From IMG/VR virus record IMGVR_UViG_3300042860_001373, positions 1 to 30,650 of that record: a stretch of DNA of 30,650 nt. One strand, 5' to 3'. The number at the start of each line of letters is the position of its first letter. Positions within the stretch are counted from its first letter, which is position 1. Below, piece after piece: positions 3,267 to 27,263 of the stretch. The notes below the pieces were generated by a model that ran no database searches, was not told the DNA's origin, and saw only the letters and a list, made by a program, of their open reading frames with translations. The position numbers were made by a program, and so were the translations under genes. This DNA comes from a virus.

Positions 3267-4000
3267 GAATTCGATCAATCAAGCCCGAGTTTTGGGAGTC
3301 CGAAAGTCTAGGTAGAGTTTCAAGAGAGGCTCGACTGCTTTTCATAGGTCTCTTTTCATGCTGCGACGATGTCGGGAGGGCTCGCGCATCCTCGCGACTC
3401 CTCGCGAGCCGTCTTTTCCCTTACGACGAGGATGCTTTCAAGCGTCTTCCTGTGTGGATCTCAGAACTTGAGAAGCAAGGCTGCATCAGGCTCTATCAGG
3501 TCGACGGTGAATCCTACTTGGACATCCCAAAATGGCAAAATCACCAGAAAATCGACAAACCTTCAGCCTCTAAGCTCCCGTCATTCGACGATGTTCGAGA
3601 GGATTCGCGAGTATTCGAGAAAGATTGCCTTGGAACAGGGAACAGGGAAGAGGAACAGGGAGAGGTTTCAGAGACTGTCGTCGACGAGGTTTCGGTGAAA
3701 CCTCTGTGGGGTCTAAAGTTCGGCCTAACTCTACCCGAGAAGCTTCAGACCAACGAATGCCTTTTTGCCGTCGAGACCTGGCTGGCCTACAAGGCCGAGA
3801 GGAAGCAGGGATACAAACGAATCGGCCTTTCGGCTGCCCTTAACGCTTGGGCCAAAGAGTTTAACGCACAGACATTCCCGGATGCGGTGAATTATTCCAT
3901 GGCAAATAATTACCAAGGCATTTTCGCATCTAAAGCGCTTCTAACTTCTGGATCGCCCCAAGCCGGCACCTTCTCCACCAACATCGCCGACTACCAATGA
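3263..4000 (+). CDS. Phage replication initiator / helicase-loader-like protein, 245 aa
   Basis: The N-terminus (MRIRSIKPEFWESESL, then ARLLFIGLFSCCDDVGR and LFPYD) is the hallmark of a widespread family of phage replication proteins with an N-terminal winged-helix domain, often encoded just before a DnaB-type helicase or a DnaC-type loader. Residues about 115-140 are an acidic, low-complexity linker. The C-terminal half (residues 150-225) may be a DnaD/DnaT-like partner-binding domain. It overlaps the helicase gene by four bases. It probably recognises the origin and recruits the helicase encoded next. No separate loader is seen. Confidence 0.65.
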   Translation: MRIRSIKPEFWESESLGRVSREARLLFIGLFSCCDDVGRARASSRLLASRLFPYDEDAFKRLPVWISELEKQGCIRLYQVDGESYLDIPKWQNHQKIDKPSASKLPSFDDVREDSRVFEKDCLGTGNREEEQGEVSETVVDEVSVKPLWGLKFGLTLPEKLQTNECLFAVETWLAYKAERKQGYKRIGLSAALNAWAKEFNAQTFPDAVNYSMANNYQGIFASKALLTSGSPQAGTFSTNIADYQ

Positions 4001-25761: not shown

Positions 25762-25876
25762 TTTTCTCACGGCACGGCTCGGCCCGGTAGGGCGCGGTAC
25801 GGCTTGGCCCGGCGGGGCAAGGCACGGCAGGGCTAGGCAAAACGCCTACCGGTGGGCGGTATCACCGGACACTTTC
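25761..25876 (+). repeat. GGCNN array plus hairpin, unit 1
   Basis: After the lysozyme stop comes ATTTTCTCAC, then fourteen pentamers GGCNN (two read GGTNN) from 25771 to 25840 in exact 5-base register. A hairpin follows: CCGGTG (25849-25854), loop GGCGGTAT, CACCGG (25863-25868). An ACACTTTC box ends the unit. GG every five bases also fits a two-tier G-quadruplex pattern (GG with three-base loops). Confidence 0.85.
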
Positions 25877-25911
25877 GTCAGTAACAACCAAGGCAACCAA
25901 AGCAAAACAAC

Positions 25912-26487
25912 ATGAAGCAAATCAAAGTCAAACTCACCGGGCTGCGGCCCCTCATCATGCACAACGGCGACATGGTGGATCACAAGAACCCATACGTCAT
26001 GGCGATCAAACGCATCACAGCCAAAGGAAGCAAAAACATGACTCCAAGCGATCACGACGAGCGCGACCGTCTGGAGTGGGAGGCCGGCCTTTACTGGTCC
26101 GAGGCTGAAGGCGGTCTGGTGCTGCCGTGCGACAACATCGAGAAATGTCTCAAGGACGGCGCCAAGAAGGCTCGCCTTGGTAAGAAGTTCGACGCCGCCG
26201 TCCTTTTGTCTGAGGCCGAGGCTGTGATTCATCACAGGAGAATCGGCCAGACCAAAGAGCAGATCTACTCCGACCCAGCCTTTACACTCCGGAAGCGAGT
26301 TGACCTCGGGATCATTCGAGTCAGGCCCATGGTTCCTTCTGGCTGGTGGACGACCTGCACCATTGAGTTCGATGAATCGGTTGTCTCGAAGGAGCAAGTG
26401 ATCGACGCAACACGCGAGGCTGGCGGATTGGTCGGCCTGGGCGACTGGCGACCGAAGTTCGGCCGGTTCACCGTCGAGGTGGTTTGA
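25912..26487 (+). CDS. RAMP-like glycine-loop protein of unknown function, 191 aa
   Basis: The N-terminus (MKQIKVKLTGLRPLIMHNGD) is a beta-strand plus a helix starting region. The C-terminal GLVGLGDWRPKFGRFTVEVV has a glycine-rich loop like that of ferredoxin-fold RAMP RNA-binding proteins. I believe similar sequences (GIGDWRP, GRF) are widespread phage proteins without assigned function. Residues 34-60 are charged. It is flanked by four GGCNN/hairpin units, one upstream and three downstream, suggesting it binds or depends on them. The leader AACCAAAGCAAAACA is shared with 25125. Catalytic residues are not evident. The RAMP assignment is an inference. Confidence 0.55.
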   Translation: MKQIKVKLTGLRPLIMHNGDMVDHKNPYVMAIKRITAKGSKNMTPSDHDERDRLEWEAGLYWSEAEGGLVLPCDNIEKCLKDGAKKARLGKKFDAAVLLSEAEAVIHHRRIGQTKEQIYSDPAFTLRKRVDLGIIRVRPMVPSGWWTTCTIEFDESVVSKEQVIDATREAGGLVGLGDWRPKFGRFTVEVV

Positions 26488-26571
26488 ATTTCTCGAGGTT
26501 GGGCACGGCAAGCCGGGGCATGGCCTGGCGAGGCGTGGCATAGCAACACGCGACCCGGCGCGGTATCCGGG
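26488..26571 (+). repeat. GGCNN array plus hairpin, unit 2
   Basis: Begins AATTTCTC directly after the stop codon. About ten pentamers follow in 5-base register from 26497 to 26544, mostly GGCNN with one GCC and a last AGC. The hairpin is CCCGG (26554-26558), loop CGCGGTAT, CCGGG (26567-26571). The loop again contains CGGTA. Confidence 0.85.
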
Positions 26572-26665
26572 ACAATTTCTCGCGGCGTGTCCAGGCATGG
26601 GCATCGGCCGGGCTGGGCCGGGCACGGCTCGGCAGGGCAATACGTCACTGGGTACGGTAACCCAG
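26572..26665 (+). repeat. GGCNN array plus hairpin, unit 3
   Basis: Opens with ACAATTTCTC. GGC recurs at 26584, 26594, 26600, then every five bases from 26606 to 26636. The early part has slipped register by one base twice. The hairpin is CTGGG (26648-26652), loop TACGGTAA, CCCAG (26661-26665). One further T-A pair can close the loop. Confidence 0.85.
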
Positions 26666-26777
26666 ACAATTTTCTCAAGGCGTGGCATGGCCCGGTCCGG
26701 CTGGGCAAGGCTTGGTGCGGCGGGGCTAGGCGGGGCGCGGCAACAACGCTTTCCGGTGTGCGGTAACACCGGGCAAC
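26666..26777 (+). repeat. GGCNN array plus hairpin, unit 4
   Basis: Opens with ACAATTTTCTC. Thirteen pentamers (eleven GGC, two GGT) run in exact register from 26679 to 26741. The hairpin is CCGGTG (26753-26758), loop TGCGGTAA, CACCGG (26767-26772). GCAACTTTC follows, ten bases before the next gene's ATG. Confidence 0.85.
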
Positions 26778-26786
26778 TTTCAGCAA

Positions 26787-27263
26787 ATGGAAACACAAGA
26801 CATGATCAACGAAGAAGAAGTCCGGCGCCTTCCGCTCTGGAAGGACTGGATCGACCGCAACGAGCACCGGCTGGCCTACGGCCTGACCGTGACCATCGAG
26901 GAGATGGAGACAGCCCTGGAGGAGAAGGCCAACTCCATGGCCTTCCAGATGGCTGTGCACAACATCCGGGTGCTGCTGCGGCAGCGTGGCATGAACTTCA
27001 GCCAGCGGGGCCTCCGCGGGGCCGGCTTCCAGATCCTGCCGCCCAACACCAACGCCGACGAAATGGAGCACCTGAACCGGGTGGCCTTGAACAGCCTCAA
27101 GGCCTCGGTGATTCTGGGCACCAAGACTAATCTCAACCTACTCTCCGACTGCGAGCGCAAACGGCACGAGGCGGTCACCGAGAAGATGGCGCACAGGCTG
27201 GCCCTCCTGGGACGGTCGAACGCTGGCCTCGGCCAGGAGATCGCAAAGCAGATTACCCAATGA
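26787..27263 (+). CDS. Hypothetical helical protein, 158 aa
   Basis: Not recognised. A largely helical chain (VTIEEMETALEEKANSMAF, then LNRVALNSLKASVILG) with a short charged start. It is downstream of the third GGCNN/hairpin unit in a row, with no Shine-Dalgarno motif (TTTCAGCAAATGG). It overlaps the next small gene as ATGA and so begins the continuous chain of coupled genes that runs to the end. A recombination or DNA-binding role is possible because a RuvC-like gene is close. Confidence 0.55.
   Translation: METQDMINEEEVRRLPLWKDWIDRNEHRLAYGLTVTIEEMETALEEKANSMAFQMAVHNIRVLLRQRGMNFSQRGLRGAGFQILPPNTNADEMEHLNRVALNSLKASVILGTKTNLNLLSDCERKRHEAVTEKMAHRLALLGRSNAGLGQEIAKQITQ

Follow-up and report, generated by a model that had tools for sequence, protein, structure and literature searches.

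Each of the four hairpins found in the window very probably forms the 3′ tail of a VIPR guide RNA (vrRNA) of an uncultivated tailed phage, working by the mechanism proposed below. The window, that is, the whole stretch of DNA analysed, corresponds to a complete IMG/VR virus record (30,650 bases), in which genes for a terminase, a head protease, a DnaB-like helicase and a Holliday junction resolvase were also found, and no close DNA relative of it appeared in the phage collection searched. VIPR was described in a 2026 preprint (PMC13142463) as a phage-borne CRISPR-related system consisting of a small RAMP protein of about 20 kD (Vipr), an accessory gene (vap) and vrRNAs, in which 9–16 GGY/NN repeats are followed by an invariable structured 3′ tail. 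For the type II system of the Escherichia phage SUSP1 (record KT454805.2), one vrRNA was reported on the upstream side of the protein genes and three on the downstream side, together with an RNA–protein complex, a one-base skip between the NN dinucleotides at the targets and repression (PMC13142463). The window carries a complete VIPR locus of another phage lineage, in which vipr and vap are accompanied by four vrRNAs, and two of these have imperfect arrays. The initial annotation had left the identity of the element open, and the gene at 25912–26487, lying within the span that it reported, explains the element.

To begin with, all four hairpins described in that annotation were found as written, on the + strand: CCGGTG-GGCGGTAT-CACCGG (25849–25868), CCCGG-CGCGGTAT-CCGGG (26554–26571), CTGGG-TACGGTAA-CCCAG (26648–26665) and (T)CCGGTG-TGCGGTAA-CACCGG(G) (26752–26773). 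The window contained 23 NNCGGTAW strings, 9 of them on the + strand and the other 14 on the − strand, and only four were enclosed by a stem of at least 5 pairs, these being the four hairpins, compared with 0.14 such hairpins in first-order Markov shuffles of the window (maximum of 2 in 200 shuffles). The common loop of eight bases that had been proposed was retained for copy 2, while in copies 1, 3 and 4 the outer loop bases are able to pair (G-U, U-A and U-A, respectively), which would leave an open loop of six bases. Moreover, each of the four hairpins lay directly 3′ of a GG[C/T]NN array, as had been stated, with 14, 10, 7 and 13 units before hairpins 1 to 4 under tolerant parsing. The 9–16 YNNGG repeats of VIPR were thus clear in vrRNA1 (14) and vrRNA4 (13), with 10 imperfect units in vrRNA2 and an array of 7 in vrRNA3, below that range; imperfect units were contained in arrays 2 and 3. 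Neither the window nor 14 array loci yielded an Rfam family at gathering thresholds.

The gene order observed was vrRNA1-vipr-vrRNA2-4-vap, with all elements on the + strand. The first guide RNA, vrRNA1 (25771–25871), comprised an array of 14 GGYNN units (25771–25840), the last NN of which (AA) counts as tail, and a tail at 25841–25868 plus ACA. Within tail 1 (25843–25868), the linker segment S1a (CGC, 25843–25845) preceded the stem (25849–25854/25863–25868), whose loop contained S1b (GCG, 25856–25858) and GTAT (25859–25862). Between hairpins 1 and 2, vipr (25912–26487) encoded a protein of 191 aa, and it was followed by vrRNA2 (26497–26574), with an imperfect array of 10 units by tolerant parsing (26497–26546), S1a CGC (26549–26551), a stem at 26554–26558/26567–26571 and S1b GCG (26560–26562). 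In vrRNA3 (26606–26668), seven in-frame units (26606–26640), with the array upstream of them broken by an indel, preceded S1a CGT (26643–26645), the stem (26648–26652/26661–26665) and S1b ACG (26654–26656). Finally, vrRNA4 (26679–26776) had 13 units (26679–26743), S1a CGC (26747–26749), a stem at 26752–26758/26767–26773 and S1b GCG (26760–26762), and vap (26787–27263), encoding an accessory protein of 158 aa, was located 3′ of hairpin 4. The arrays of vrRNA2 (26497–26546) and vrRNA3 (26606–26640) look partly decayed, with imperfect GGY units and an indel, and both tails are intact. Furthermore, many relatives (L124–L160) carried a fifth vrRNA about 100 bases upstream of slot 1 (slot 0, loop ACGGCA), which was absent from the window.

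The product of vipr was assigned by its match to PHROG 4652, its homology to the SUSP1 protein and its predicted structure. It showed 32% identity to SUSP1 Vipr over the full length (E 6e−34 in a single comparison), and the SUSP1 homologue likewise sits between GGY arrays. Relatives were present in 131 phage records, all of them below 60% identity, and no Pfam or PADLOC family was found for the protein. In the AlphaFold (AF2) model (pLDDT 81.3), all 50 PDB matches listed by Foldseek were Csm3/Cas7-type RAMP structures (best E 1.8e−5), and the VIA comparison gave Z values of up to 9.2 with an rmsd of 3.0–3.4 over 128–142 residues. The model matches and the SUSP1 homology thus agree with a RAMP of about 20 kD with a single RRM core, in which the invariant motif GxGDWRPKFGR would be the G-loop, with low pLDDT at positions 175–179.

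A vap homologue was present in 50 of the 51 loci examined, the remaining one being truncated by the end of its contig, and the SUSP1 gene beside vipr was matched at E 5.5e−5 by a vap profile built without annotated phages, so that the vap accessory gene of VIPR is also found here. The AF2 model of the protein (pLDDT 85.3) predicted a winged-helix-like fold with C-terminal helices, whose PDB matches were weak (best E 0.053, none with E≤0.001). A tblastn search with the 158-aa protein gave no phage match, and the Pfam and PADLOC rows obtained for it were disregarded as weak (E 0.0047–0.11).

The association between arrays and Vipr was also observed beyond this locus. At least 120 viral stretches matched the pattern GGCNN x7, and a Vipr relative was encoded in 83 of the 120 stretches chosen by the array pattern alone, in contrast to none of 52 control viral stretches; these 120 were the matches listed rather than a random sample, and include contigs recurring in other analyses. 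Iteration of the Vipr profile, in which hits from these stretches were added to it, raised the count to 83 from the 80 obtained in the first round. In 81 of the 83 cases the nearest array was on the strand of the gene, at a median distance of 25 bases. With a longer pattern, only 5 out of 120 stretches of bacterial genomes among the matches listed encoded Vipr, and the array pattern alone reflects mostly chance or other repeats in bacteria. Bacterial relatives of Vipr in stretches selected by GGCNN arrays were those of Dokdonella fugitiva (L246), an FCB group MAG (L269), an Alphaproteobacteria MAG with two copies (L217), a Fibrobacteres MAG (L169) and a Bradyrhizobiaceae MAG (L243).

The stems of the tails were subsequently compared between the window and its relatives, in which the tail of each slot was nearly constant and the array ahead of it differed. 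On 20 distinct tails, stem pairing reached 91.4% of 116 cells, compared with 57.5% in shuffles, changes on both sides were found at all six stem pairs, and the covariation score was 0.726, whereas shuffles gave 0.183 and slid partners no more than 0.290; four misaligned rows (two of L150 and two of L151, one gap) were retained in this count, which lowers the pairing. A functional RNA with compensated stems, as had been proposed from the four copies, was therefore borne out by this covariation, and the alternative of a DNA cruciform offered with it is unnecessary as an explanation. Stem changes breaking the pairing, named in advance as evidence to the contrary, were rare, with one mismatch in L161 and a G-U wobble (CTGGG/CTCAG) that many relatives have in slot 3. 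The conserved CGGTA loop was confirmed in the four window copies but was not fully conserved in the relatives, where RCGGCA, ACGAAAC, ACGGAAC and GCGGTAA were also found.

In general form, the tail consisted of a linker ACGY and a hairpin with a loop starting with RCG, the latter being complementary to the linker CGY in 32 out of 33 distinct tails, with the remaining one having its linker cut by the parser. The variable linker-loop pair was C-G in 97 tail matches and T-A in 49 (some tails counted twice), with no C-A or T-G, and it switched both from slot to slot and from L150 to L151. The other two of the three pairs were constant, so that the support for the pseudoknot comes from a single varying pair. 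These pairs were counted by script, as the MAFFT columns were shifted by unequal linker lengths. In a first script the stem was imposed and the loop sequence left free, and in a second one CG was set in the linker and the loop and the paired position was left free; chance hairpins in arrays and genes were set aside by eye (besides one obvious array hairpin of the C/G class, 26 matches in the eight remaining classes, of which 10 were G/G). No hairpin was found at 17 of the 143 array ends, which by eye were coding or unrelated sequences (9), breaks inside arrays (7) and one tail located slightly further on (L126). The resulting layout, with three linker bases, 1–4 nt, a stem of 5–7 pairs, 0–1 nt, RCG, about 4 nt and the closing stem strand, is that of a classical H-type pseudoknot. 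Judging from the covariation, the linker CGY and the loop RCG would thus be able to form a compact H-type pseudoknot, as would S1a and S1b in tail 1. The invariable structured 3′ tail of VIPR was therefore present. Nevertheless, single-strand folding of the whole vrRNA1 did not favour the tail hairpin, and whole vrRNAs without protein did not always keep the tail, so that Vipr or co-transcriptional folding would be needed to hold it.

The hairpins could also be read as transcription terminators or processing sites between genes, with the arrays as incidental leaders, since they are intergenic and a T-rich stretch (such as TTTTCTC) comes after the ACA or GCA 3′ of each of them. However, the T-run does not lie directly at the stem, three tails occur in tandem without an intervening gene, the tail is always 3′ of a GGY array, and loci bearing such arrays encode Vipr, all of which makes this explanation unlikely. 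A terminator or processing role may exist in addition to the role as a tail.

Other tails were seen in more distant Vipr relatives (L153–L159, L452, L458, L460 and L462), of the forms AACAC...hairpin...AAGATTT or ACACAC...hairpin...GTGTG, with many compensated stem changes. Moreover, a tRNA T-arm-like motif (GNTTCGANTC) in an acceptor-like stem was detected within 100 nt 3′ of 7 out of 433 GGYNN arrays, whereas the background rate would give about 0.8. Such sites were located in Mycobacterium phage LittleE (L285:2175–2420 and 3765–3890), in Gordonia phage Trine (L287:3128–3247), at L007:3722–3830, and, on the minus strand, at L024:4314 and 4486 (numbered from the 5′ end of that strand). The folds of these sites were not significantly better than those of shuffles, and they may be tRNA-like vrRNA tails. 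No report of tRNA-like or linker-loop pseudoknot vrRNA tails was found in a literature search or in the main text of PMC13142463.

Variable guides were observed ahead of the constant tails. The GGY framework was kept and the NN positions were hypervariable, as in VIPR, with an entropy of 3.9 of 4 bits in 87 distinct 9-unit arrays. Among 21 close array pairs, which are not independent, 43 of 57 changes fell at NN (23 expected), the pyrimidine accounting for 10 and GG for 4. In phages whose vipr DNA was 95–96% identical to that of the window, the guides were mostly unrelated; two close-kin guides were found, which over nine units differed from those of the window by two NN bases (L124, slot 1) and by three (L125, slot 4). 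In addition, 20 of the 87 distinct arrays were common to several loci, and related arrays appeared on different tails (slot 3 of L132 and slot 2 of L139; slot 0 of L132 and slot 2 of L138), so that guide and tail can be reassorted.

A five-base period with three fixed bases, in an array upstream of a gene, would also be expected of leader-RNA sites bound by a ring protein like TRAP, which binds triplets spaced every five bases, regulating the downstream gene. This is hardly conceivable here, as the neighbouring protein is a RAMP and the NN positions are near-random and change more than GGY, for which regulation in cis has no need. Similarly, the exchange of arrays between phages and slots might suggest that the hairpins are cruciform DNA sites driving the recombination or diversification of the arrays, the model being the hairpin beside the target of a diversity-generating retroelement. 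However, homologous recombination through the GGC framework accounts for such exchange, the array length varies and the linker-loop covariation fits an RNA fold, which makes a cruciform site very improbable.

The VIPR assignment, instead, agrees with most features of the SUSP1 locus, which shares with the window a full-length Vipr homologue, a vap homologue and GGY/NN arrays on both sides of the genes. In contrast, vap directly follows vipr in SUSP1 and the arrays flank the pair, the arrays are GGT-rich there and GGC-rich here, and the SUSP1 loop GGTAG could, by eye, pair with a downstream CTACC, while the loop can pair with the upstream linker here. The architecture and vap resemble those of SUSP1 (type II), the comparison of type covering these two features. 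With class 1 CRISPR-Cas systems and their Csm3/Cas7 backbone subunits, the locus shares the RAMP fold and a variable guide followed by a constant handle, but it differs in its single small RAMP and in guide information held in dinucleotides (PMC13142463). Moreover, the identical repeats with spacers that characterize class 1 systems were not found, as no repeat-spacer array was present in the window and repeat searches of the region returned degenerate pentamer arrays only.

Candidate targets were sought for the guides. Local scans with 68, 347 and 79 guides and skips of 0–3 showed no excess over shuffled guides. Against the viral collection, 8-unit cores matched 6 and 5 stretches for vrRNA1 (two cores) and 3 for vrRNA4, none of which extended, the remaining units matching at no more than 5 of 10 or 4 of 12 bases. 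The positive control, SUSP1 vrRNA1, matched 43 stretches, none extending, a failure that makes these null results uninformative. No site within 3 mismatches turned up when 30 related phage contigs were scanned over their whole records, which makes it improbable that the guides are directed at relatives of this lineage; given the control, nothing more can be concluded.

In the mechanism proposed, a full vrRNA of about 95–100 nt would consist of the GGYNN array, whose NN dinucleotides would be the guide, followed by the linker and the hairpin, with the pseudoknot between linker CGY and loop RCG capping the guide. Most likely, the array would be coated by Vipr with one subunit per GGY, and the tail would be the handle recognised by Vipr. 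The dinucleotides would then read the double-stranded DNA of a competitor, skipping one base between them, and the complex would silence that DNA with the assistance of vap. For this phage, the analysis itself establishes the anatomy, the homology, the fold, the covariation of the stems and the hypervariability of the guides. The RNA–protein complex, the skip rule and the repression are carried over by analogy from SUSP1 (PMC13142463), and the pseudoknot, the recognition of the tail by Vipr and the function of the system in this phage are inferred.

VIPR itself is already known (PMC13142463), and the parts worth following are the tail pseudoknot and the natural series of guides. In about 30 related phage contigs, the same VIPR locus appears with constant tails and changing guides, which makes it testable which tail features are needed for recognition and how guides are renewed without known adaptation genes. 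Moreover, the link between GGCNN and Vipr provides a one-line pattern for locating VIPR loci in raw viral sequence. More speculatively, the tail might be an exchangeable structural module, with an H-type pseudoknot in this clade and apparently a tRNA-like acceptor/T-arm in some actinophages, so that different folds would have the same capping role. In addition, the NN guides would be rewritten between near-identical phages without known adaptation genes, which points to a fast renewal of the guides. If this tentative proposal were true, both layers would be so far unreported for VIPR, and guide renewal, by mutation together with the exchange of arrays along their GGY framework, would be a precursor of spacer acquisition.
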